From Nothopassalora personata (taxonomy: Eukaryota; Ascomycota; Dothideomycetes; Mycosphaerellales; Mycosphaerellaceae): a DNA stretch of 64,000 bases. Shown in pieces: positions 37,692 to 61,160 of the stretch; position 1 is the stretch's first letter; each line of letters starts with the position of its first letter. The notes below the pieces were generated by a model. The model ran no database searches, was not told where the DNA came from, and was given only the letters and a program-made list of their open reading frames with translations. A program made the position numbers and the translations under genes. Where the stretch lies: positions 3,410,001 through 3,474,000 of the forward strand of contig CM066291.1 of NCBI GenBank assembly GCA_033816765.1. Reading direction: 5' to 3'.

Positions 37692-39362
37692 TAATGTCTA
37701 CTAACTACCCTATGTAGGCCTGTCCGAGTTATAGTAGTATAGAGCGGCGCTTATGTAAGTAGAGGTATTTACCGGTCCCGGGACCGGGAAATTAGGTTAC
37801 GTAACGAGTAGCGTAGTAGCTAGATTGAATAAGAGGATTAGCGGACCTAAACCCCTATACCCTCTACTCGAGAGGTATAAATTAAATTTTTGCCTTAATG
37901 CTACGCTTATAATGCTTAACTACGTAGTATATATCTTAATAGCTATACTAGGTCCTACTAGCTTACCTAAATGTCTAATTAAACCTAAATGAAATTTAGG
38001 CAAGTTAGACCTAAGGGACCCCCTCTAAACCTAAGGTTAACATAACCTATTAGTCGTTAATATATCCTCCCCTATTACGAACCTATCCTTAGGTTCTAAA
38101 GTAGTAAGCCCGGGTACTATAGGTAGCGTAGTTAGTCGCTATAAGCTAAGGTAGTCTTATACTAGCATAGCAGCTTACCCTACCATTTAGCTTAATATAT
38201 AAGATATTAGGCAATCCTAGGGCCTACTAGCGACAGTTTATAAAGATCGAAAGGATCCTTCTATTAGAGACCGTAATAGTAACGTTAATAACCGCGACTT
38301 GCATCCGTCGCACTATATTAACGTATACTACGAAATTAGCGAGGGAATGGATAGCTATATTAGCATTAATCGAACGGGCTAGATAGTCGAATAGTGTAGA
38401 CGCTATTTATAAGACAAGTAAGTGTTAGTACTAGTAACCTAATAAATCTAAAGACGAGTCTATCGCGTAGCTAGAAAGTAAGTTAAGGGAAGATAAGTAA
38501 CTATAAGAAATAAGTAAGATCTAAGGACTAGAAGCACCCGTACCCGAAGCATTAACTAGAATTAGAACTAGAATTAGAACTAGAATTAGAACTAGAATTA
38601 GAACTAGAATTAGAACTAGAATTAGAACTAGAATTAGAACTAGAATTAGAACTAGAATTAGAACTAGAATTAGAACTAGAATTAGAACTAGAATTAGAAC
38701 TAGAATTAGAACTAGAATTAGAACTAGAAACCTATAGGCTATAGCTATAGCCGGAAAATTAACTAGAAACTAGAAGCCTATAAACCCGTACTAACTACTT
38801 AGTTCCACTTATTCTTACATAACTCCTTTGTTTAGACCCACTCGTTATCGTAGCTAACACTAGTCTTACTAGACGCGTCCCTAAGTAGCTAGCTAGTAAA
38901 GTTCCTATAGTAGTTACGGAAGAAGCTCTTATTACGCCCTTTGCTTATAAAGCATATCTACTCGAGAGTAGTAACTAAGCTAAGCTACTTGTCTATTAAT
39001 TTTATAGCTCGGACGCGCTAATTATGTATCTTCTTATAGAAGAGCTCCGAGTCTAAGCGGACCGTAGCATTAAGCTACCTTCTAGCATTAAGGATGACTT
39101 TATTATCGTTCTAAGACTTTAAACCCGCTAGGGTATCGGATAGAGGGCTAATGCTACTAAGGTGTACGCCCGTAGGGAAAGGATAGCTAGGTACTAGGCG
39201 TCGATACTTAAACCCTATAGCGCTCTTACTTAGCGTCTTAAAGTTACGATAGAGGTCTATCACCTAGTGCATGCTCTAGCTTCTCTAGAGTTTAAGATAG
39301 TTATCGTTGCGGATCTCGATAAAGTGAGGGTTAATCTAACGTAGCGTCTTCTTATATACGGC
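37692..39362. repeat. repeat R, copy 2, left part
   Basis: Collinear with 23747-25320. It differs by a longer 12-bp array and an insertion near 38300. It is interrupted by the chromovirus at 39363 and resumes at 46230. Confidence 0.75.
38559..38730. repeat. 12-bp tandem array (ATTAGAACTAGA), about 14 units
   Basis: Nearly perfect units in repeat R copy 2. Copy 1 has only a short irregular version at 24630-24682, so the array expanded after the copies separated, or contracted in the other. Confidence 0.9.
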
Positions 39363-39739
39363 TATTACGTTCTAAGCGCGACGGGTATGAGGCTCCCCCG
39401 CACTAGCACGTAACGACATTAGGATCCGTGTCTCGTGACATAGATCCCCTATATAGACGATCTATCGCTCCCTCGATAGACACTATAGACCCTTTCGGAT
39501 CTGTGGGATCTGTAGGCAGACACTATAGATCTAGATAATGTATTCCTTTATATTTAGGAACCCTAAGAACCCTTATAGTTTCGATGCGTTCAACTTATGT
39601 TACTATCTCACTAATTGGAATACAACTCTTATTCCTATTATTTATCTTCGCTTAGCTTACTTTAGCCTCTCTAAAGAATACCGCTACGTGACTTAACTTA
39701 TCTCTCCTTTAAGACTAGCCCTAGAACGAGATAATAACA
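39363..39739 (+). repeat. 5' LTR of the RIP-mutated chromovirus
   Basis: Starts TATTACGTTCTAAG (from TGTTACG) and ends AATAACA. U3 contains repeated GATC words such as GGATCTGT. Confidence 0.85.
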
Positions 39740-39759
39740 CTTTAAACGCCCTTAGGATA

Positions 39760-41775
39760 AGCGCTACTTAAGCAGCTAGTAGGGGAACACCCGCCCCTAG
39801 CGAAGTAGGAAGCATCCGCCGTACGCTACTATAATAGACTACTACGAAGGACGATAAGTCTAATAACGATAACGAGCCTACTCTAAGGAAGAACGACGTT
39901 AAGGCTACTAAGCTAGACCTCTTCTATAGAGACAGAGCTAAGTTCGACGACTAGGTCAATTAGATAGATATATATCTTATGTTTAACCTAGTCGATGCCG
40001 ATAAAAGAACTATCTTCGCTATTACGTACCTTCGCGGAAGTACGTAGAACTAGATCAAACCTTACCTTAAGGAATACCTCGAAGGTATAGGACGACAAGA
40101 CCCTACCGGAATGTTTAGGAGCTACACCCTTTTTAAAGAAAAGATAAAATTAATCTTTAGAACCTCGAACGAAGTCTAACAGGCTATACAAATTATTTAA
40201 CACCTAAAGTAGAAGACGTCTACTTTAGAGTATGTAGCTAAATTCGAAGAATACGGACAGATTACCGGATAGGACTAGACGGCGTTAATGACTATGTTCC
40301 GACGTAGACTTAAGGACTCCGTTAAGGACGAGTTAATAAGGTACGGGGGACGGATTACTAACCTCGAAGAGCTAATAAAGGCGTCGATCAATATCGATAA
40401 CTAGCTCTAGGAACGACACTAGGAGAAGAAATACGACTCTAAAGTAGGAGGAATAGTAGAATACGCTCCGGATCGTAGACCCTTAGGAGGATACGTTACG
40501 AAGGGAGAATTCTCACGATAAAGCTAGCCCTACTATAGACTATAGCTAATGAAACTAGACGTTACCCAACGAGGACGGAGGATTAATAAGAGTAGGGGCC
40601 ACGGAAAGCCCTTTAAAGGAAAAGGAAAACTCACATGCTATACCTATAGTAAGGAAGGTCACATAGCGCGGGATTGCCGCGGTAAAAATATAGTGCGCCG
40701 CGAGCAATTTAATATAATACAACCCCGAACTAGTAAATCCGAGAGTAGCGTTAGATCTTGAGGAGATACCGACTATACTCGGAGAGTAGGGGAGAGAGCT
40801 AGCAATAGAAGTACGATGCCTCTCCTAGACCCCTTAGAAGAACGAGGAGGATACTATAGGTAGCAAATGGTAGTCATTCTATTTAATGCGAAGAACTAAC
40901 TACGACAGTTCAATATAATAATACGAAGAGTCGACTACGAGATCGAATCCGAGTCTCGAAATAGTTATAGAAGCCTTTATTAGCGATTCTGTTACTAAGA
41001 CTCGTGTTAAGTTTACTACGCCGCGAAGTTAGGCGTAGGGTATTAGCCTTAGTAACCACGAGGAACCCTAGGAGCGACGTATAGGCAAAACGCCACGCTC
41101 CGAGAAGTAGACATCGACGAATCCTACTTTAACGAAGATAGAAGCGATAAAGAAAATCAGGACCTAGGATAGAACGAATTATAGTTACTAGAACTATAGG
41201 AAGAAAGTTAAGAAACTACCGGGCTAAATACTATTAAGGAAGAACAGGATCCGGAAGAATTAAGCGAAGAAGATTCCTCCGAAGGAGAAGAGAGCAATAC
41301 TAACGACGATAACGAACAACTTACCTTTACGATAGATGCACCTAAGAAACTGTACGACATAATTATCTACCTATAAAGAAGGCACGAGGAATTCCTACCT
41401 AAGATAGGCGGACGAAGGAGGCTACACTCTATTAAGTTTAATAAGACACTCGACACCCTACGAGGCATAGCCTAGGGATACCTACTTATAGAAACAACCG
41501 AGAATCTAGTAACCGCCGTTATAGAACGACTACCGATAGGAAGCCGAATAATAGGAACCGGATATCTTATACCGTTAGGAACATTTATATCGAATAAATT
41601 ACGTAACATAGTGCAACACGTACGCGCACTCTACTTAGAAACGTAGAAGATCTAGGAACGTAATAGACTATAAGTGTAGACATAGGGTAACGGGCTACAG
41701 GTTCTAGCCGAAGCCTCTAGGCACGAAGTATAGCGAACTACATATTATTCGGGAAAAGGATTAGCTCCCTAGGAA
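39760..41775 (+). pseudogene. gag of the RIP-mutated chromovirus
   Basis: The text follows the open gag at 60615-58597 residue by residue between RIP stops. The zinc knuckle is damaged: CYTYSKEGHIARDC here against CYACGKEGHMARDC in the open copy, a Cys to Tyr change expected from TGC to TAC. The junction to pol keeps the CTCCCTAGGAAT sequence of the open copy. Confidence 0.8.
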
Positions 41776-41799
41776 TAAGCAACTAAAGGGAGTTATGCA

Positions 41800-44700
41800 A
41801 TACTTAGGCTCACGCATCGATATTAAACACAGTTTTCTAGACATAAGCAATCGTTAACGGACACAAGACTAGTGTTATGATCGACTTAGGAGTAGCGGGG
41901 AATTTTATCTCCGAGTCTTTTATAAGAAGAAACGGGTTAGCTACCCTAAAGAAGAAATAGGGTTACGAGTTAATTGCGGTAAACGGATTATCGTTACCTA
42001 GCGTAGAATAGGAGACGATACTATTGCTACTAGCTATCTAACAGCACTACGAGAATATTACCTTAGATGTCACTAATATAGCTAGTTATGACATAGTATT
42101 AGGTATGCCTTAGTTAAGAAAGCACAACCTAGTAATCGACTAGAGAAGAGGAGTACTTACATTTAGGGAATGCGATTGCGTTGTCGACATTTAGCCTACG
42201 TAGTAGTAGCGTTCACTAGTAGATGAGGTAAGGAAACAGCTAAACGAGATATAGCTTACGCCGAATAGAAGGAATTAAGAACTACCTTCGACCGGGATAG
42301 ACACTAGCGTAGGGCCGCCGGGTTACGAAGTTACTAGAAGTAATAGAAGTAACGTACTATCGAAGAATACTAACATCTTAGAGTTAAGTATTCCTAAGGA
42401 GTATCGTAAGTAGTCGCGACTCTTTAAAGAGGAGAGAGGCAAAACCGCCTTACCTAAGTACCGCCTATAGGATTATAAGATTAACATTTAGCTAGGGAAA
42501 GAGCCTCTATAGGGACCCCTATATTAAATGTCTAAGAAAGAGCTATAGACCCTACGAGAATAGCTAAAGGAGAAGCTAGCTAAAGGATAGATAAGAAGAT
42601 CCACCTTAAGTATAGGAACTCTATGCATGTTCGTTCTAAAAGCAAACGGGAAGTTACGACTCGTATAAGACTATAGGAAGTTAAACGAGATTACGATTAA
42701 GAACCGATACCCGCTACCTAACATCGAAGAAGCATAAGATAGATTAACCGGATCGGACTAGTACACGAAGATTAACCTACGAGATGCCTTCTACGCTATA
42801 CGAATAGTAGAAGGAGAAGAATGGAAAACCGCTTTTAGAATAAGATACGGACTCTACGAATTCTTAGTTATGCTAATAGGATTAACTAACGCACCCGCAT
42901 CCTGCTAGGACCTTGTTAACGAAACACTTAGAGACCTACTCAACGTATACGTTATCGCCTACATAGACGACATATTAGTCTACATAAAAGGATCCCTATA
43001 GGAACACATAAGACAAGTCTAGGACGTCTTCGAACGACTCACGCAATTAGGATTCAAGACGGCACCCGAGAAATGCGAATTCTATAAGAAAGAAGTTAAA
43101 TTCTTAGGCTTCATTATTAGTACTATAGGGATAACGATCGACCCTACGAAGACACAGTCAATTAGAGAATAGCTAGAACCAAAAACAGTTAAGGACGTAC
43201 AATTATTCCTTAGACTAGCGAACTACAACCGGAAATTCATTAAGGACTACGTAAAGACAGTAGCACTAATAACGATGCTTACGAGAAAAGACGTTACTTA
43301 GAAATAGGGAAGGGAATAGATTAAAGCGTTTAAAAAACTTAAGGAACAATGCGCTTTAGCCCCTACGGTTCGACTATTCGATAGTAGTAAGGAAGTCTAT
43401 ATCGAGACCGATGCGTCTAATATAGCAATAGGCGCATGTCTAACATAGACATACGATAGGTAGAGACACCTAGTAGCCTATTACTCCCGGAAAATGACTA
43501 TAGCGGAACAGAACTACGACATCTATAACAAAGAGCTTCTAGCTATTATTGCTGCTATGTAACATTAGAGAGTATATGTCGAGGGCCTACCGAAGTTAAC
43601 GATTCTTTCTAACTATAAGAATCTTACGTACTTCACGACGACGAAAGAACTTACCCGAAGGCAAGCCCGCTAGTCGGAGCTACTAGGACAGTATAAGTTC
43701 GAAATTAAATATACTCTAGGACGAGAGAATGGCCGCGCCGACGCGCTAAGCCGAAGAAGCGACTATATAGAAGGAAAAGAACTAGTATAATACAAAATAT
43801 TAAAGACGAACCCCGACGGAAGTCTTAGCGCTAACATAAGAGAGTTTAACAATATCGTACGGATATTAAGCGATAAGGACGAACAATTCCCTATATCGTA
43901 AGGAAAATACTAGGTACTAAAGGATCGAGAAGAAGAATATATACGATAACATTACGACGGACTAACTTATAGACACCCTAGAACTTTAAAGACAATAGAC
44001 CTAATATAACGTAGTTTCTCATTCCTATAGATAAGACTTAAGGTGTTACGCTACATTAAACAATGCGTACACTACTAACGAAACAAGGCTACGAGACATG
44101 TAAAATACGGTCACCTACAGTTTAGGACACTACCGACGAAACTATAGGACGAAGTTATAATAGACTTTATTATAAAACTCCTACCGTTAAGAGATTAAGT
44201 TAGGAAACAACTATACGACATAATACTAGTTATAGTTAATAGACTCACGAAATACGCACACTTCATTCCTATATCGGAAACGTATAATGTAGAGTAGCTC
44301 GGATACCTCGTACTAGATAGACTTATCCGATACCACGTATTTCCCTAAGCGTTTATAACGGATAGAGACAAGCTATTTACATTAAATTACTAGAAGACGC
44401 TTATAGGAACGATCGGAATTAAACATAAGCTATTAATAGCATATTATCCGGAAATAGACGGACAAACCGAAAGGATAAATTAAACGCTAGAACAATACCT
44501 ACGACACTATATTAATTATGTATAAGACAACTAGGTCTTATTACTGCTAATAGCGTAGATTGTACTAAACAACCACAAATTAGAGATAACTTTAACGACA
44601 CCATTTTATACGAACTTTAGTAAAGATCCTAACCTATTTAGAACACCTAGATCTTACCCATAAGCCGAAAGAGCAATCGTGACGACGGATACTCTTAAGG

Positions 44701-45150
44701 AAGTGCATAAAGAAACACGTAAGGCGATCGAAGATATATAACAAAAACTGTCTCGATAACGGTAGGACACGAGAAAAATAGCACCTCTACTAAAAGAGGG
44801 GGATAAGGTCTATCTCCTTACAAAAAACTTAAGAACAAGAAGATAGACTAAGAAACTAGATCACGTTAAGGTCGGACCATTTTTTATCGACAAAGTTATA
44901 GGACTAGTTAACTACCGCCTACGACTACTACTAGACGCAAAAATCCACCTAGTCTTCCATATCTCTAAGCTGGAACCCGTAGACACCGAAACACCCTACT
45001 AGGAAAGCTTCTATTTCGAGCCGGAAGTAGAAAACGAATTTAAAGTCGAAAAAATCCTAGATAAGAAAGGTTAGCGATACCTTGTTAAGTAGAAAGGATA
45101 CGACGATTTAGAAAATACCTAGGAACTAAAGGCGAACCTTACGAATTGCC
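41800..45150 (+). pseudogene. pol of the RIP-mutated chromovirus
   Basis: Protease, RT (YIDDILVY, about 42.96 kb), RNase H and integrase segments align with the open pol at 58594-55115. Similarity is high up to the chromodomain (ILDKKG.RYLVK.KGYD, about 45.06-45.11 kb) and then drops abruptly, so the C-terminal tail is different from that of the open copy. Confidence 0.8.
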
Positions 45151-45221
45151 GCTAGCTGCTAAAAGATTTCTACTACCGCTAAGTAGCGGGAGCGCGCCGT
45201 TAACCGGTTCCGCTACTACAC

Positions 45222-45750
45222 TATTAAGAAAACCCTAGAACCTATTATCGGCGAAACCATCCATAGCGCTCCGAGTTAGAGGACTTAGGGCAAGACCGGA
45301 ATTAGGTATAGGTTCGAGTAGTAAGCCCTACGCTACTAGCTCCCGATCCGCCGCTTCCTCCTCCTCGATCTCTCGCTCCTCGAGAGCACGACCCTCCTCC
45401 ACCTTACGGTTAATAGCATCTAACTGCTTCCGAAGACGCATCTCCTTCGCATGCGCCTCTATCATTTTCGCCGAAGCTTCCGAAAGAGCCTCCTTCGTAC
45501 GATCGAGATCGGCTAATAACTTCTTTCGCTAATCCCCGAGTTTTTTCTACTCTACCTTAGTTACCTTCGCATCGTACCGCGCCGCGTTACTAAGATAGCA
45601 ATAGGAACACTTTCTAGACGAGATATGCATACGGCACACTAGGTTGTTCTTCGTACACCGAGAACAAGGCTTTATAACTTCTTCTCCGAGGCGATGAACG
45701 CGGTTTACGCGGTTCTTTCGTTTTCGAGTGGATAACGCGTCTAAGGACAC
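45222..45750 (-). pseudogene. antisense Zn(II)2Cys6-like gene in the RIP-mutated chromovirus
   Basis: Reading opposite to gag-pol, a cluster CSRCTKNNLVCRMH then KCSYCYLSNAARYD matches the binuclear cluster of the open copy, with the sixth Cys now Tyr, as RIP would cause. A coiled-coil text (DRTKEALSEASAKMIEAH, ALEEREIEEEE) and SGLALSPLTRSAMDG follow, with only TAG stops between. Residue similarity to the open copy is clear but much lower than in Gag or Pol. Confidence 0.7.
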
Positions 45751-45853
45751 GATAAGAGTAGGAAGAAAGGAAGATATCCTTACCTATAGTCGAAGTAGGA
45801 AACGTTAAGGTTATAACTAGTCTCGGGACGAGACTAGGCCGGAAGGGGGATAG

Positions 45854-46229
45854 TGTTACGGTCTAAGCGCGACGGGTATAAGGCTCCCCCGTACTAGCAC
45901 GTAACGACATTAGGATCCGTGTCTCGTGACATAGATCCCCTATATAGAGGATCTGTCGCTCCCTCGATAGACACTATAGACCCTTTCGGATCTGTAGGAT
46001 CTGTAGGTAGACACTACAGATCTAGATGATATATTCCTTTATATTTAGGAACGCTAAGAACCCTTATAGTTTCGATGCGTTCAACTTATGTTACTATCTC
46101 ACTAATTGGAATACAACTCTTATTCCTATTATTCATCTTCGCTTAGCTTACTTTAGCCTCTCTAAAGAATACCGCCACGTGACTTGACTTATCTCTCCTT
46201 TGAGACTAGCCCTAGAACGAGACAATAAT
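45854..46229 (+). repeat. 3' LTR of the RIP-mutated chromovirus
   Basis: Starts TGTTACGGTCTAAG, ends AATAATA (from AATAACA), followed by ACGGC. Confidence 0.85.
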
Positions 46230-54137: not shown

Positions 54138-54524
54138 TGTTATTGTCTCGTTCCAGGGCTAGTCTCAAAAGAGAGATAAGTCAAGTCACGTGGCGGTATT
54201 ATTCTTTGGAGAGGCTGAAGCAAGCTGAGCGAAGATGAATGATAGGAATAAGAGTTGTATTCCAATCAGTGAGATAGTAACATGAGTTGAACGCATCAGA
54301 ACCATAAGGGTTTCTAGCGTTCCTAAATACAAAGGAGATTCGCGGCGTAGAGCCTATGGCTCAGTATGATCACCTTGATCAGTCCCACTGAGCATACTGA
54401 TCACACTGATCAGTCCGTGAAGTGATCAGTGTCACGTGCGTCTGGATGATCAGTATCACGTGTTTCCAAGTGATCAGTGTTTCGTGTGTCTGGTCGGGGC
54501 TGCCGTTTGGACCGAACCGTAACA
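54138..54524 (-). repeat. 3' LTR of the complete chromovirus (387 bp)
   Basis: 54138-54351 is R/U5-like sequence nearly identical to 60633-60846. The rest (U3) carries seven TGATCA palindromes and two CACGTG within about 115 bp. It matches neither the other LTR nor the solo LTR there. Confidence 0.9.
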
Positions 54525-54693
54525 CCATCCCCCTTCTAGCCTAGCTCAGTCCCTTGAGCTTACTTATGACGAACGGTATCCTCCATGTATTCGCGTATGG
54601 CTTCTTCCCTTTGCGATGCCTATCCACCAACGCCCTTCCAGCACCATCCGTCGCCGCCGTCTCTAAGAGTTCGTTGAATCCGCGGGAGAAGTC

Positions 54694-55173
54694 ATGGTTA
54701 AGAAATGCTCAACGTGTGAAAAGCATGGTCGCGTGTGCAAGGTGCACATTCGTTCCGGGAAGTGTAGTGAGTGTCTTCGTCGCGGCCAAAGGTGCGATGT
54801 AAGAGTAACTCAGTCGGAGTTTAAGAGGTTAGCAGAGGAGAAGGCTCGTCTTCGTCAGAAAATCCAGGAGTCTCGGTCCGCTCAGGAGGAGGCGATGCGG
54901 GTTCATGAGAAGGCTCTCGAGGATCTAAAGATTGCTCGCGCGCGCGAGGAGCGCTTGCGTCAGCAGATGGATCTAGTGGATCGTCGTGCCGAGGAGGCGA
55001 TTTCCGTTGAGGAAAGGGAGATCGAGGAGCAGGAGATAGAAGAGGCTTCTTTGCTTCCTTCGGATATCCCTTGTGAGGGTCTGGCTCTCAACTTGTCACC
55101 AGGCACATGGGGTGCTATTGAGGGTCTCGGTGACGAGTTCTGGGAGGTACCCGAACTACTCCCTGCTGGTTGA
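54694..55173 (+). CDS. antisense Zn(II)2Cys6 coiled-coil protein carried by the chromovirus (159 aa)
   Basis: From ATG 54694 the protein opens with Cys at residues 5, 8, 15, 24, 27 and 34. The C-x2-C-x6-C-x8-C-x2-C-x6-C spacing is exactly that of the fungal Zn(II)2Cys6 binuclear cluster, and the region is rich in Arg and Lys (CLRRGQRCDVRV). Residues ~42-125 are a charged heptad-like coiled coil (EEKARLRQKIQESRSAQEEA), then an acidic segment and GLALNLSPGTWGAIEGLGDE. This layout suits a small dimeric DNA-binding protein. It is encoded opposite to gag-pol and overlaps the last 59 bp of pol. An in-frame TAA lies ten codons upstream. The diverged homologue in the copy at 39363 argues it is a real gene of the element. 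Function is inferred. Confidence 0.75.
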   Translation: MVKKCSTCEKHGRVCKVHIRSGKCSECLRRGQRCDVRVTQSEFKRLAEEKARLRQKIQESRSAQEEAMRVHEKALEDLKIARAREERLRQQMDLVDRRAEEAISVEEREIEEQEIEEASLLPSDIPCEGLALNLSPGTWGAIEGLGDEFWEVPELLPAG

Positions 55174-58100
55174 CTTGTAGGTCTTTGTTTTTCTTATGAT
55201 ATTCTCGGATCTTTTGTTGACAGTTTTGTAGGTTCTTTTCTGGTTCCCAGGTATTTTCTGATTCGTCGTATCCTTTCCATTTGACAAGGTATCGCTGACC
55301 TTTCTTGTCTAGGATTCTTTCGACTTCGAATTCGTTTTCTGCTTCCGGTTCGAAATGGAAGCTCTCCTGGCAGGGTGTTTCGGCGTCTGCGGGTTCCAAC
55401 TTAGAGATATGGAAGACTGGGTGGATTCTTGCGTCTAGTGGTAGTCGTAGGCGGTAGTTAACTGGTCCTATGACTTTGTCGATAAAAAATGGTCCGACCT
55501 TGACGTGATCCAGTTTCTTGGTCTGTCTTCTTGTTCTCAAGTTTTTTGTAAGGAGATAGACCTTATCCCCCTCTTTTAGCAGAGGTGCCATTTTTTTCGT
55601 GTCCTGCCGTTGTTGAGACAGTTTTCGTTGTGCATCTTCGATCGCCCTGCGTGTTTCTTTGTGCACTTCCTTAAGAGTATCCGTCGTCACGATTGCTCTC
55701 TCGGCCTGTGGATGGGATCCAGGTGTTCCGAATAGGTTAGGATCTTTACCAAAGTTCGCATAAAATGGCGTCGTTGAAGTTGTCTCCGATTTGTGGTTGT
55801 TCAGTGCAATCTGCGCCATTGGCAGTAATGAAACCCAATTGTCTTGTGCGTAGTTGATGTAGTGTCGTAGGTATTGTTCCAGCGTTTGATTCATCCTTTC
55901 GGTTTGTCCGTCTGTTTCCGGATGATATGCTGTTGACAGCTTGTGTTTAATTCCGATCGTTCCCATAAGCGTCTTCCAATAGTTTGATGTGAATAGCTTG
56001 TCTCTGTCCGTTATAAACGCTTGAGGGAATCCGTGGTATCGGATAAGTCTGTCTAGTACGAGGTATCCGAGCTGCTCTGCATTGTACGTTTCCGATGCAG
56101 GAATGAAGTGTGCGTATTTCGTAAGTCTATCAACCATGACCAGTATCATGTCGTATGGTTGTTTCGTAACTTGATCTCTTAACGGTGGGAGTTTTGTAAT
56201 AAAGTCCATTGTGACTTCGTCCCATGGTTTCGTCGGTGGTGTCCTGAACTGTAGGTGACCGTATTTCGCGTGTCTCGCAGCCTTGTTTCGTTGGCAGTGT
56301 ACGCATTGTTTAATATAGCGTGACACCTTAAGTCTCATCTGTGGGAATGAGAAACTGCGTTGTATTAGGTCCATTGTTTTTGAAGTTCCAGGGTGTCCAT
56401 AAGTTGGTCCGTCGTGATGTTGTCGTATGCATTCTTTTTCTCGATCCTTTGGTACTTGGTATTTCCCTTGCGATATAGGGAATTGTTCGTCCCTGTCGCC
56501 TAATATCCGTACGATGTTGTTGAATTCTCTTGTGTTGGCACTAAGACTTCCGTCGGGGTTTGTCCTTAGTATCTTGTGTTGCACTGGTTCTTTTCCTTCC
56601 ATGTAGTCGCTTCTTCGGCTCAGCGCGTCGGCGCGGCCATTCTCTCGTCCTGGAGTATATTTAATTTCGAACTTATACTGTCCCAGCAGCTCCGACCAGC
56701 GGGCTTGCCTTCGGGTAAGTTCTTTCGTCGTTGTGAAGTACGTAAGATTCTTGTGGTCAGAAAGAATCGTTAACTTCGGTGGGCCCTCGACATATACTCT
56801 CCAATGTTGCATGGCAGCAACAATGGCTAGAAGCTCTTTATCATGGATGTCGTAGTTCTGTTCCGCTGTGGTCATTTTCCGGGAGTAATAGGCTACTGGG
56901 TGTCTCTGCCCATCGTGTGTCTGTGTTAGACATGCGCCTATTGCCATATCAGACGCATCGGTCTCGATGTGGACTTCCTTGCTACCATCGAATAGTCGAA
57001 GCGTGGGGGCTGAAGCGCATTGTTCCTTAAGTTTCTTGAATGCTTCAATCTGTTCTTTTCCCCATTTCCAGGTGACGTCCTTTCTTGTAAGCATCGTCAT
57101 TGGTGCTGCTATTTTCGCGTAGTCCTTAATGAATTTCCGGTTGTAGTTCGCTAGTCCAAGGAATGATTGTACGTCCTTGACTGTTTTCGGTTCTGGCCAC
57201 TCTCTAATTGACTGTGTCTTCGCAGGGTCGATCGTTATCCCTGTGGTGCTAATAATGAAGCCTAAGAATTTGACTTCTTTCTTGTGGAATTCGCATTTCT
57301 CGGGTGCCGTCTTGAACCCTGATTGCGTGAGTCGTTCGAAGACGTCCTGGACTTGTTTTATGTGTTCCTGTAGGGACCCTTTTGTGTAGACCAGTATGTC
57401 GTCCATGTATGCGATAACGCATACATCGAGTAGGTCTCTAAGTGTTTCGTTGACAAGGTCCTGGCAGGATGCGGGTGCGTTGGTTAATCCCATTGGCATA
57501 ACTAAGAATTCGTAAAGTCCGTATCTTGTTCTGAAAGCGGTTTTCCATTCTTCTCCTTCTGCCATTCGTATAGCATAGAAGGCATCTCGTAGGTCAATCT
57601 TCGTGTACCAGTCCGATCCGGTTAATCTGTCTTGTGCTTCTTCGATGTTGGGTAGCGGGTATCGGTTCTTGATCGTGATCTCGTTTAACTTCCTGTAGTC
57701 TTGTACGAGTCGTAACTTCCCGTTTGCCTTTGGAACGAACATGCATGGAGTTCCTGCACTTGAGGTGGATCTTCTTATCCATCCTTTGGCTAGCTTCTCC
57801 TTCAGCCATTCTCGTAGGGTCTGTAGCTCTTTCTCAGACATTTGATATAGGGGTCCCCATGGAGGCTCTTTCCCTGGCTGAATGTTGATCTTGTGATCCC
57901 ATGGGCGGTGCTTAGGTAAGGCGGTTTTGCCTCTTTCCTCTTCAAAGAGTCGCGACCACTTGCGATACTCCTTGGGAATACTCAACTCTGAGATGTTAGT
58001 ATTCTTCGATGGTGCGTTACTTCCATCACTTCCAGTGACTTCGTGACCCGGCGGCCCCACGCCAGTGTCTGTCCCGGTCGAAGGTGGTTCTTCTGTCCTT

Positions 58101-58594
58101 CTATTCGGCGCAAGCTGTATCTCGTTTAGCTGTTTCCTTGCCTCATCTGCCAGTGAACGCTGCCACTGCGCAGGCTGAATGTCGACAACGCAATCGCATT
58201 CCCTAAATGTGAGTACTCCTCTTCTCCAGTCGATTACTGGATTGTGCTTTCTCAACCAAGGCATACCTAATACTATGTCATGACTGGCCATATCAGTGAC
58301 ATCCAAGGTAATATTCTCGTGGTGCTGTTGGATAGCCAGTGGCAATGGTATCGTCTCCCATTCCACGCTAGGTAACGATGATCCGTTTACCGCGATCAAC
58401 TCGTAACCCCATTTCTTCTTTAGGGTAGCTAACCCGTTTCTTCTTGTGAAAGACTCGGAGATAAAATTCCCCGCTGCTCCTGAGTCGATCATGACACTAG
58501 TCTTGTGTCCGTTAACGATTGCTTGTGTCTGGAAAACTGTGTTTGATGTCGATGCGTGAGCCTGAATATTGCATAACTCCCTCCGGTCGCTCAT
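55115..58594 (-). CDS. pol: Pol polyprotein of the complete chromovirus (1159 aa)
   Basis: Starting at ATG 58594, domains follow in order: aspartic protease (MIDSGAAGNF, Asp37), reverse transcriptase (KLRLVQDYRKLNE at 293-305, AYMDDILVY with YMDD at 396-399), RNase H (TDASD at 545) and integrase. The integrase has a zinc-binding HHCC region (about 726-767) and the catalytic triad Asp797, Asp863 and Glu899, a D-D-35-E spacing. A C-terminal chromodomain (FEVERILDKKGQRYLVKWKG, about 1089-1137) makes it a chromovirus; such domains steer integration toward heterochromatin. No stop or frameshift is seen, so the enzymes appear functional. The last 59 bp overlap the antisense Zn2Cys6 gene. Confidence 0.95.
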   Translation of the reverse strand: MSDRRELCNIQAHASTSNTVFQTQAIVNGHKTSVMIDSGAAGNFISESFTRRNGLATLKKKWGYELIAVNGSSLPSVEWETIPLPLAIQQHHENITLDVTDMASHDIVLGMPWLRKHNPVIDWRRGVLTFRECDCVVDIQPAQWQRSLADEARKQLNEIQLAPNRRTEEPPSTGTDTGVGPPGHEVTGSDGSNAPSKNTNISELSIPKEYRKWSRLFEEERGKTALPKHRPWDHKINIQPGKEPPWGPLYQMSEKELQTLREWLKEKLAKGWIRRSTSSAGTPCMFVPKANGKLRLVQDYRKLNEITIKNRYPLPNIEEAQDRLTGSDWYTKIDLRDAFYAIRMAEGEEWKTAFRTRYGLYEFLVMPMGLTNAPASCQDLVNETLRDLLDVCVIAYMDDILVYTKGSLQEHIKQVQDVFERLTQSGFKTAPEKCEFHKKEVKFLGFIISTTGITIDPAKTQSIREWPEPKTVKDVQSFLGLANYNRKFIKDYAKIAAPMTMLTRKDVTWKWGKEQIEAFKKLKEQCASAPTLRLFDGSKEVHIETDASDMAIGACLTQTHDGQRHPVAYYSRKMTTAEQNYDIHDKELLAIVAAMQHWRVYVEGPPKLTILSDHKNLTYFTTTKELTRRQARWSELLGQYKFEIKYTPGRENGRADALSRRSDYMEGKEPVQHKILRTNPDGSLSANTREFNNIVRILGDRDEQFPISQGKYQVPKDREKECIRQHHDGPTYGHPGTSKTMDLIQRSFSFPQMRLKVSRYIKQCVHCQRNKAARHAKYGHLQFRTPPTKPWDEVTMDFITKLPPLRDQVTKQPYDMILVMVDRLTKYAHFIPASETYNAEQLGYLVLDRLIRYHGFPQAFITDRDKLFTSNYWKTLMGTIGIKHKLSTAYHPETDGQTERMNQTLEQYLRHYINYAQDNWVSLLPMAQIALNNHKSETTSTTPFYANFGKDPNLFGTPGSHPQAERAIVTTDTLKEVHKETRRAIEDAQRKLSQQRQDTKKMAPLLKEGDKVYLLTKNLRTRRQTKKLDHVKVGPFFIDKVIGPVNYRLRLPLDARIHPVFHISKLEPADAETPCQESFHFEPEAENEFEVERILDKKGQRYLVKWKGYDESENTWEPEKNLQNCQQKIREYHKKNKDLQVNQQGVVRVPPRTRHRDPQ

Positions 58595-58596
58595 TC

Positions 58597-60615
58597 CTAG
58601 GGAGCTGATCCTTTTCCCGAATGGTATGTGGTTCGCTGTGCTTCGTGCCTAGAGGCTTCGGCTAGAACCTGTAGCTCGTTGCCCTGTGTCCACACTTGTA
58701 GTCTGTTGCGTTCCTGGATCTTCTGCGTTTCTGAGTAGAGTGCGCGTGCGTGCTGCACTATGTTGCGTAATTCATTCGATATAAATGTTCCTGACGGTGT
58801 AAGATATCCGGTTCCTGTTATTCGGCTTCCTATCGGTGGTCGTTCTGTAACGGTGGTTGCTAGATTCTCGGTTGTTTCCATGAGTGGGTATCCCCAGGCC
58901 ATGCCTCGTAGGGTGTCGAGTGTCTTGTCAAACTCAATGGAATGTAGCCTCCTTCGTCCACCTATCTTAGGTAGGAATTCCTCGTGCCTTCTTTGTAGGT
59001 AGATGATCATGTCGTACAGTTTTTTAGGTGCATCTACCGTGAAGGTAAGTTGTTCGTTGTCGCCGTCAGTGTCGCTCTCTTCTCCTTCGGAGGAATCTTC
59101 TTCGCTGGATTCTTCCGGATCCTGTTCTTCCTCGATGGTATCTAGCCCGGTGGTTTCTTGACTTTCTTCCTGTGGTTCTGGTGACCATGATCCGTTCCAT
59201 CCTGGGTCCTGATTTTCTTTATCGCTTCCATCTTCGTTGAAGTAGGATTCATCGATGTCCACTTCTCTGAGCGTGGCGTTTTGCCTATGCGTCGCTCCTA
59301 GGGTTCCTCGTGGTTGCTGAGGCCAATACCCTGCGCCTGATTTCGCGGCGTAGTGGATTTGACACGAGTCTTGGTAACAGAATCGCCAATGAAGGCTTCC
59401 ATGACCATTTCGAGACTCGGATTCGGTCTCGTAGTCGACTCTTCGTGTCATCATGTTGAACTGTCGTGGTTGGTTCTTCGCATCAAATGGAATGACCACC
59501 ATTTGCTGCCCATGGTATCCTCCTCGTCCTTCTGAGGGGTCCAGGAGAGGCGTCGTGTTTCTGTTGCTAGCTCTCTCCTCCACTCTCCGAGTATAGTCGG
59601 TATCTCCTCGAGATCCAACGCTGCTCTCAGATTTACTAGTTCGGGGTTGCATCATATTGAATTGCTCGCGGCGCACCATATTTTTACCGCGGCAATCTCG
59701 CGCCATGTGGCCTTCCTTGCCACAGGCATAACATGTGAGTTTTCCTTTTCCTTTGAAGGGCTTTCCGTGGCCCCTACTCTTATCGATCTTCCGTCCTCGT
59801 TGGGTAACGTCCAGTTCCATTGGCTGTGGTCCATAGTAGGGTTGGCTTTGTCGTGAGAATTCTCCCTTCGCAACGTATCCTCCTAAGGGTCTGCGGTCCG
59901 GAGCATATCCTGCTATTCCTCCTACTTTGGAGTCGTATTTCTTCTCCTGGTGTCGTTCCCAGAGCTGGTCATCGATGTTGATCGACGCCTTCATTAGCTC
60001 TTCGAGGTTGGTGATCCGTCCCCCGTGTCTCATTAACTCGTCCTTGACGGAGTCTTTGAGTCCACGTCGGAACATAGTCATCAACGCCGTCTGGTCCCAT
60101 CTGGTGATTTGTCCGTACTCTTCGAATTTGGCGGCATACTCTGAAGCAGACGTCTTCTGTTTCAGGTGTTGAATGATTCGTATGGCCTGTTGGACTTCGT
60201 TCGAGGTTCCAAAGATTGATTTCATCTTTTCTTTGAAAAGGGTGTAGCTCCTGAACATTCCAGTGGGGTCTAATCGTCCCATACCTTCAAGGTATTCCTT
60301 AAGGTAAGGTTTGATCCAGTTCTGCGCACTTCCGCGAAGGTACGTGATGGCGAAGATAGTCCTCTTATTAGCATCGACTGGGTTGAACATGAGATACATA
60401 TCCATCTGATTGATCCAGTCGTCGAACTTGGCTCTGTCTCCATGGAAGAGGTCTGGCTTGGCGGCCTTAACGTCGTTCTTCCTTGGAGTAGACTCGTCAT
60501 CGTCATCAGACTCATCGTCCTTCGTGGTGGTAGTCTGTTGTGGTGGCGCACGGCGGATGCTTCCTGCTTCGCTGGGGGCGGGTGTTCCCCTACCAGCTGC
60601 TTGAGTAGCGCTCAT
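58597..60615 (-). CDS. gag: Gag protein of the complete chromovirus (672 aa)
   Basis: ATG 60615 (MSATQAAGRGTPAPSEAG) lies only 18 bp inside the 5' LTR. Acid-rich text leads to the retrotransposon Gag domain (AKFDDWINQMDMYLMFNPVD, AITYLRGSAQNWIKPYLKEY). Around residue 293 sits a single CCHC knuckle, CYACGKEGHMARDC, for RNA binding. Beyond it comes an unusually long C-terminal part with an acidic stretch (ESSEEDSSEGEESDTDG) and a conserved-looking region (EFLPKIGGRRRLHSIEFDKT). Gag ends at TAG 58599-58597; the pol ATG begins two bases later in another frame, so Pol may be made by reinitiation or frameshifting. A longer frame extends into the LTR but lacks support. Confidence 0.9.
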   Translation of the reverse strand: MSATQAAGRGTPAPSEAGSIRRAPPQQTTTTKDDESDDDDESTPRKNDVKAAKPDLFHGDRAKFDDWINQMDMYLMFNPVDANKRTIFAITYLRGSAQNWIKPYLKEYLEGMGRLDPTGMFRSYTLFKEKMKSIFGTSNEVQQAIRIIQHLKQKTSASEYAAKFEEYGQITRWDQTALMTMFRRGLKDSVKDELMRHGGRITNLEELMKASINIDDQLWERHQEKKYDSKVGGIAGYAPDRRPLGGYVAKGEFSRQSQPYYGPQPMELDVTQRGRKIDKSRGHGKPFKGKGKLTCYACGKEGHMARDCRGKNMVRREQFNMMQPRTSKSESSVGSRGDTDYTRRVEERASNRNTTPLLDPSEGRGGYHGQQMVVIPFDAKNQPRQFNMMTRRVDYETESESRNGHGSLHWRFCYQDSCQIHYAAKSGAGYWPQQPRGTLGATHRQNATLREVDIDESYFNEDGSDKENQDPGWNGSWSPEPQEESQETTGLDTIEEEQDPEESSEEDSSEGEESDTDGDNEQLTFTVDAPKKLYDMIIYLQRRHEEFLPKIGGRRRLHSIEFDKTLDTLRGMAWGYPLMETTENLATTVTERPPIGSRITGTGYLTPSGTFISNELRNIVQHARALYSETQKIQERNRLQVWTQGNELQVLAEASRHEAQRTTYHSGKGSAP

Positions 60616-60616
60616 C

Positions 60617-60632
60617 CTGAGGGCGTTCAAAG
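60617..60632 (-). promoter_or_regulatory. region expected to hold the primer binding site
   Basis: Only about 17 bp (CTTTGAACGCCCTCAGG) separate LTR and gag ATG; the same sequence, RIP-altered, follows the LTR at 39740. I could not assign a tRNA. Confidence 0.35.
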
Positions 60633-61041
60633 TGTTATTGTCTCGTTCCAGGGCTAGTCTCAAAAGAGAGATAAGTCAAGTCACGTGGCGGTATTATTCT
60701 TTGGAGAGGCTGAAGCAAGCTGAGCGAAGATAAATGATAGGAATAAGAGTTGTATTCCAATCAGTGAGATAGTAACATGAGTTGAACGCATCAGAACCAT
60801 AAGGGTTTCTAGCGTTCCTAAATACAAAGGAGATAGAGCGTTTGCTCTCCGTGCTCTCCATGCTCTCCATGCTCTCTCGAGATCACCGAGATCAACGAGA
60901 TCAAGGAGATCACTTCAGTTGCTCTCTCGGTTCCTTGGTTTTATTCCTGCGGGTGAGAGAGCACTTCTCGGGCGGAAGCGCCCACCAATTGTGGAGGTCT
61001 GATTGGTTAGCTTCCTTCAGCCCCAGATCAGAACCGTAACA
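60633..61041 (-). repeat. 5' LTR of the complete chromovirus (409 bp)
   Basis: 60633-60846 matches the 3' LTR with one seen difference (GATGAA versus GATAAA, RIP-type). Its U3 instead carries GCTCTCC repeats and four GAGATCA words. The terminus reads TGTTACGGTTCTGATC on the minus strand. Confidence 0.9.
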
Positions 61042-61160
61042 CTATACTAGGTCTTACTAGCTTGCCTAAATGTCCAATTAAACCTAAATGAAATTAGGGC
61101 AAGTTGGACCTAAGGGACCCCCTTCTAAACCTAAGGTCAATATAACCCATTAGTCGTTAA
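61042..61160. repeat. fragment of repeat R (copy 3)
   Basis: CTATACTAGGTCTTACTAGC onward matches R at 24064-24190 and 37944-38060. It is less RIP-mutated (retains GGGCAAGTTGG). It begins exactly at the chromovirus end. Confidence 0.75.

Follow-up and report, generated by a model that had tools for sequence, protein, structure and literature searches.

An antisense gene with a zinc-cluster cysteine pattern is exchanged together with the adjacent U3 among long terminal repeat retrotransposons of Nothopassalora personata, and may regulate it

The window analysed here, a 64-kb stretch of Nothopassalora personata contig CM066291.1 (positions 3410001-3474000) within a 54.5-Mb genome of 40 contigs, contains a minus-strand Ty3/gypsy chromovirus (54138-61041) that carries, just inside its 3' long terminal repeat (LTR), a gene on the opposite strand (54616-55173, plus). 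Our comparison across the genome, from which the pattern emerges as it could not from one window, indicates that this antisense gene is exchanged between elements together with the polypurine tract and the U3 region of the adjoining LTR. We tentatively propose, with somewhat less than even confidence, that LTR retrotransposons of fungi evolve through a trade in regulator-operator cassettes: each family's own zinc-cluster transcription factor, encoded antisense to pol, would be tuned to the repeat array of its own U3, and template switching would place these private circuits on bodies, autonomous or gag-only, that families have in common. In eukaryotic retroelements, such cassettes would correspond to the exchangeable immunity modules, made of repressor and operator, that temperate phages carry.

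When the genome was searched with the window protein, and again with a distant type, each search yielded at least 150 scored loci, from 779 and 863 candidates; since all 150 scored places were filled in both, these totals are lower bounds. We compared 16 types of the gene (A-D, G, H, J-R and T), 14 of them clearly distinct, as O is 98% like M and R is 97% like P; O and R were compared in the region near the gene only, and J without its 5' side. In all 16 types the gene is antisense and lies just inside the 3' LTR, which begins TGTTACGG after GGGGATGG, and the same polypurine tract (54525-54538, minus strand, in the window element) precedes that LTR. Elements of types A and C are 98.2% identical along the 5.6 kb that extend from R-U5 through the end of pol. 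Beyond that point the likeness is lost: the two antisense proteins are 36% identical, and the U3s cannot be aligned. Type P shares the window pol tail at 96.0%, with an antisense protein only 33-34% like those of A and C. The pol tails of A, C and P are 96-100% identical to that of the window element at the nucleotide level and the antisense genes differ, and near-identical gag-pol bodies (96-98%) carry divergent antisense proteins, each with its own U3. The body of type B is more distant, matching the A element at 84% along 4.2 kb and at 70% along a further 1.0 kb, and its antisense protein, 51% identical to that of A, is closer than that of C.

A second body encodes only a gag of 347 amino acids with a CCHC knuckle. 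It is found in type G and in eight further types (D, H, K, L, M, N, Q and T), whose gag is 95.3-99.3% identical to that of G (for M over 992 of 1041 nucleotides). These elements (L031, L032, L034-L037, L040 and L042 among them) measure about 2.1-2.4 kb from LTR to LTR, which leaves no room for pol, and their pol must come from elsewhere. The antisense proteins of the nine gag-only types are 24-60% identical, except for the pairs L-M (83%) and N-T (92%). Type J combines the N-terminal half of the same gag with an R-U5 of the A kind. Antisense gene, polypurine tract and U3 are thus exchanged as a unit on at least two bodies.

The window element is itself a mosaic. Its two LTRs are unequal, with a type C U3 (60833-61041) in the 5' LTR (60633-61041, minus) and a type A U3 (54338-54524, minus) in the 3' LTR (54138-54524, minus), whose R-U5 (54138-54337) is common to type C elements. 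At 79 diagnostic sites the element reads as A (60732-60031), then C (59698-57503, interrupted by A at 59125, 59124 and 57557), then A again (57425-55196). It lacks a target-site duplication; perfect 5-bp duplications flank all six other elements checked. A single normal round of reverse transcription yields equal LTRs, so the window element is likely the product of later recombination between elements, after insertion.

The original prediction placed the open reading frame (ORF) at 54694-55173, and a plus-strand frame of 159 amino acids with the cysteine pattern C-x2-C-x6-C-x8-C-x2-C-x6-C is indeed present there. It runs antisense to the Ty3/gypsy pol, as claimed, with a tail-to-tail overlap of 59 bp with the end of pol and the rest between pol and the 3' LTR. 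We find that it is the body of a longer gene of about 185 codons that starts at 54616. The frame stays open for 216 codons in each of four near-identical copies (L010-L013), where the N-terminus of full-length homologues begins at the position matching 54616. In the window copy a stop codon interrupts the frame at 54664-54666, and the start at 54694 is therefore an internal, nearly invariant methionine.

The ratio of replacement to silent substitution rates (dN/dS), which had been proposed as a check, was well below 1 on the antisense frame, at 0.04-0.24 between related types: 0.04 for N-T (51 silent and 8 replacement changes), 0.09 for L-M (70 silent, 31 replacement), 0.12 for K-T, 0.16 for K-N and 0.24 for A-B. 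The pairs M-P, L-P and C-D were saturated and gave no ratio, and the type C copies L046-L052 were too similar to be used. Of the five control frames, four gave 1.08-4.12 in every one of the eight pairs. The '-1' frame was also low (0.07-0.44, one pair not computable), and we take this to mirror the third codon positions. The substitution pattern thus marks the antisense frame as a real gene under purifying selection.

The protein is also conserved beyond this genome. A search of 5.8 billion proteins (E<=1) returned 173 homologues of the window protein, the best at 8.7e-80. The 120 matches listed are 53-83% identical and mostly metagenomic; named sources among them are Cercospora kikuchii, Hortaea werneckii, Cryoendolithus antarcticus, Sporormia fimetaria and Elsinoe australis. 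All four named homologues whose taxonomy was looked up belong to the Dothideomycetes, and three named homologues bear the UniRef label 'Zn(2)-C6 fungal-type domain'. The six-cysteine pattern is kept in 110 of the 120, the other 10 being fragments or having lost cysteines. When the window protein was aligned with 93 of the 120, the six cysteines were among 13 invariant columns, partly by choice, because pattern-lacking sequences were left out (10 of the 27 omitted matches lack the full pattern). Two profile searches started from more distant types found 38 (E<=1) and 100 (E<=0.01) proteins, partly overlapping, and add Cladosporium, Friedmanniomyces, Ramularia, Zopfia and a Xanthoria metagenome-assembled genome.

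Zn2Cys6 domains (PF00172) have the spacing C-x2-C-x6-C-x5-12-C-x2-C-x6-8-C. The window protein and five of the 16 types (A, B, C, D and G, with x6 between cysteines 2 and 3) satisfy it; the other 11 have x11-13 at that position (x13 in nine, x11 in P and R). A lineage with 11-13 residues instead of 6 (L033-L042, P0122-P0235) is unusual for Zn2Cys6 proteins. The assignment to the fungal zinc cluster stood in part: the spacing is there, and the Pfam profile PF00172 did not match the window protein or six types; of 94 relatives, 8 matched it weakly (best E 0.064). Foldseek searches with the predicted structure returned weak matches, 11 of 12 of them Zn2Cys6 DNA-binding domains, as were all 7 entries listed by VIA-align. 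The missing profile match holds by sequence, and the weak matches of the modelled structure point the other way.

In the same model a long helix (residues 81-161) extends beyond the cysteine region, in agreement with the coiled coil that had been expected after the cluster. A sequence profile run against the PDB gave the coiled coils of Gfh1 as best matches and LAC9 only at E 2.2; no bZIP (basic leucine zipper) domain was matched by Pfam in the window protein or six types, and a scan of IMG/VR yielded 96 pattern matches, none confirmed. In 15 of 16 types the last 60 residues are acidic (net -6 to -16). The modelled protein would combine a zinc-cluster fold with a long coiled coil, and we predict that it is a dimeric transcription factor.

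The U3s carry short repeats in both orientations: CTGATCA in A, M and P, CAGATCA in B, GAGATCA and GAGAGCA in C, CAGATCC in D, AGAGATC / AGAGAGC in N and T, CACGACC in J and CGGTCGA in H. The 3' LTR U3 of the window element has seven ACTGATC / CTGATCA sites, on both strands. Repeated 7-mers exceeded dinucleotide shuffles (<=6 of 1000) in 13 of the 16 U3s, and did not in H (350 of 1000), K (66) and Q (107). In an exact 8-mer test, G (72 of 1000) and H (374 of 1000) fell short of significance; the count for type B in that test is inflated by a tandem duplication, which was removed in the 7-mer test. In six motif tests on types A, B and C, motif density in U3 exceeded that in the internal region at least 59- to 229-fold. 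The hand-chosen motif cores sit 7-139 bp upstream of a shared core-promoter segment, where an upstream activating sequence of a fungus would lie.

Similarity of the U3s, measured by 6-mers, followed protein identity across the 16 types (r 0.63, p 0.0001) and across 14 types (r 0.42, p 0.0011). U3 similarity showed no correlation with R-U5 (r 0.12, -0.02 and -0.08 for 16, 14 and 12 types). Two pairs are informative here. The N and T proteins are 92% identical and their U3s can be aligned only in the array; the H and J proteins are 53% identical, their R-U5s have no relation to each other, and the alignable part of their U3s is limited to 16 bp ending GACGACCGGTCGA. H and J have a motif that occurs at a single site in all other types. 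These pairs argue for more than linkage between neighbours.

A role of the antisense protein on its own LTR is plausible, and we put the odds at about even that the element encodes it to regulate, and probably to activate, its own U3. In this reading the antisense gene would be driven inwards by the 3' LTR's U3, the protein would bind the repeat array upstream of the core-promoter segment, its acidic tail may recruit co-activators, and the same U3 in the 5' LTR could then drive genomic RNA. The acidic tail and the position of the sites agree with an activator. Cassettes may be exchanged by template switching, which we propose because during reverse transcription the copying of U3, followed by that of the adjacent gene, comes directly after the first strand transfer; each new protein-U3 pair would give a family a more private circuit.

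The same cassette, array and exchange data would fit a protein that binds its own U3 and represses it, as a self-limiting control of copy number in which new pairs spread by escaping existing repression. There is precedent in HBZ of HTLV-1, antisense and LTR-driven, which lowers expression from the 5' LTR (PMC10186651, available text). Yet nine gag-only types keep the gene without pol, and two pairs of them, N-T and L-M, are under strong purifying selection (low dN/dS); this favours a positive, family-specific need, and self-restraint would be hard to select in such parasites. An acidic, aromatic tail and sites upstream of the core promoter also look more like an activator, and we regard repression as less likely than activation.

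Several observations weigh against a regulator matched to its own U3, and they would suit a protein that acts elsewhere, in nuclear import, as a chaperone or in integration targeting, with host factors binding arrays that travel merely as neighbours. Adjacency of gene and U3 alone could produce the correlation, and linkage accounts for much of it; with 12 types (L and T omitted) it was not significant (r 0.18, p 0.097). The cores GATC/GAGC are shared by types whose proteins are only 25-30% identical: CTGATCA is common to A and M (25%) and GAGATCA to C and N (29%). According to the available parts of the literature, plant antisense proteins are found in the nucleus with no known role (PMC7264820), and Tnt1 has modular U3s with no such gene described (PMC1838419). 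Against this, N-T and H-J keep their motif although the remaining U3 does not align, and the H/J motif is all but private to that pair. We find this account less probable still than repression.

Antisense transcripts with RNA roles have been discussed for other elements (PMC7264820, in part), and double-stranded RNA control could in principle make the transcript rather than the protein the effector; the low dN/dS and conservation of the protein over many fungi make this very improbable. A chance open frame, to which the stop interrupting the window copy and the missing Pfam match might point, is rejected by the low dN/dS, the scored genome loci and the 173 homologues, the original prediction having named a lack of homologues in other copies as the mark of such a frame. 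A host gene caught once by one element is rejected as well, because many types carry the gene and the longest contig is of element length (6.0-7.9 kb) for 30 of the 120 listed matches (hand count; 4-6 kb for 5 and >=8 kb for 4).

Antisense accessory genes of LTR retrotransposons are already known (Boty brtn, Grande, Retand, HTLV-1 HBZ). The brtn gene of Boty-like elements was reportedly described by Zhao et al. in 2011. As far as the available text goes, the Boty-like elements of Botrytis cinerea are, by description, similar fungal Ty3/gypsy elements that have a chromodomain and, flanked by pol and the 3' LTR, an antisense gene, and exchange of brtn with U3 is not mentioned (PMC7264820, PMC8365987, PMC4227169, PMC5987419). 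No match named BRTN occurs in our three protein match lists, which were compared by name. The plant genes Grande gene23, RIRE2 and Retand TRP28 share place and orientation; some are nuclear or predicted to bind DNA, and some Retand elements are non-autonomous. Their domains differ (TRP28, SMC), and the available text describes no zinc cluster or matched U3 array (PMC7264820, PMC11963269).

HBZ is likewise an antisense-encoded transcription factor on the 3' LTR side that acts on LTR expression, according to the part of the source available (PMC10186651); for the fungal protein the regulatory role is proposed. HBZ differs in being a bZIP protein instead of a zinc-cluster protein, and its sequence is unrelated. 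We know of no exchange of HBZ with U3. The Tnt1 superfamily shares a conserved coding part with divergent, modular U3s, and differs in that the available text describes no linked regulator gene (PMC1838419). Ty1 p22 is, in the partial account available, another case of an LTR retrotransposon encoding its own (copy-number) control, but it is Gag-derived, sense-strand and acts on particles. Gal4-type Zn2Cys6 factors (Gal4, Hap1, Leu3, Put3, Ppr1, Pho7) share the spacing of types A, B, C, D and G and, by the model, a cluster followed by a coiled coil and an acidic tail. The antisense proteins differ from them in being only about 185-240 amino acids long, element-borne and below the Pfam threshold, and 11 of the 16 types have a longer first loop. 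In titles and abstracts, with most subscription papers outside coverage, we found no zinc-cluster antisense gene exchanged with its own U3.

The known antisense accessory genes would gain a function if each protein acts on its own U3. Such a system would shed light on how the element families of one nucleus escape cross-talk or turn it to use, account for non-autonomous elements that lose pol and retain the regulator, and yield a set of compact zinc-cluster factors that differ in their DNA sites. With at least 14 natural pairs of protein and U3 mounted on near-identical bodies, this one genome is a ready-made experiment.

The remaining features of the window are as follows. The window element has a gag ORF (58597-60675, minus, stop to stop) and a pol ORF (55115-58648, minus, stop to stop), with gag followed by matches to protease, reverse transcriptase, RNase H, integrase and chromodomain, as befits a chromovirus. 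A second element (39365-46228, plus; LTRs 39365-39737 and 45856-46228), of type F, is mutated by repeat-induced point mutation (RIP) and has, as predicted, an antisense homologue at the matching place and orientation (45244-45675, minus), which is degraded, 44% identical and interrupted by three TAG stops. Fifteen degraded type A copies (L014-L028) also bear a RIP signature: over the regions that align with L010, C>T and G>A changes make up 1643 of 1738 substitutions, with 1436 of these 1643 lying in CpA. An 82-bp stretch recurs at 37943-38024 and 61042-61123 with 93% identity, the right copy starting exactly where the 5' LTR of the window element has its outer end. Finally, a near-perfect 12-bp tandem array (AACTAGAATTAG) lies at 38554-38733.
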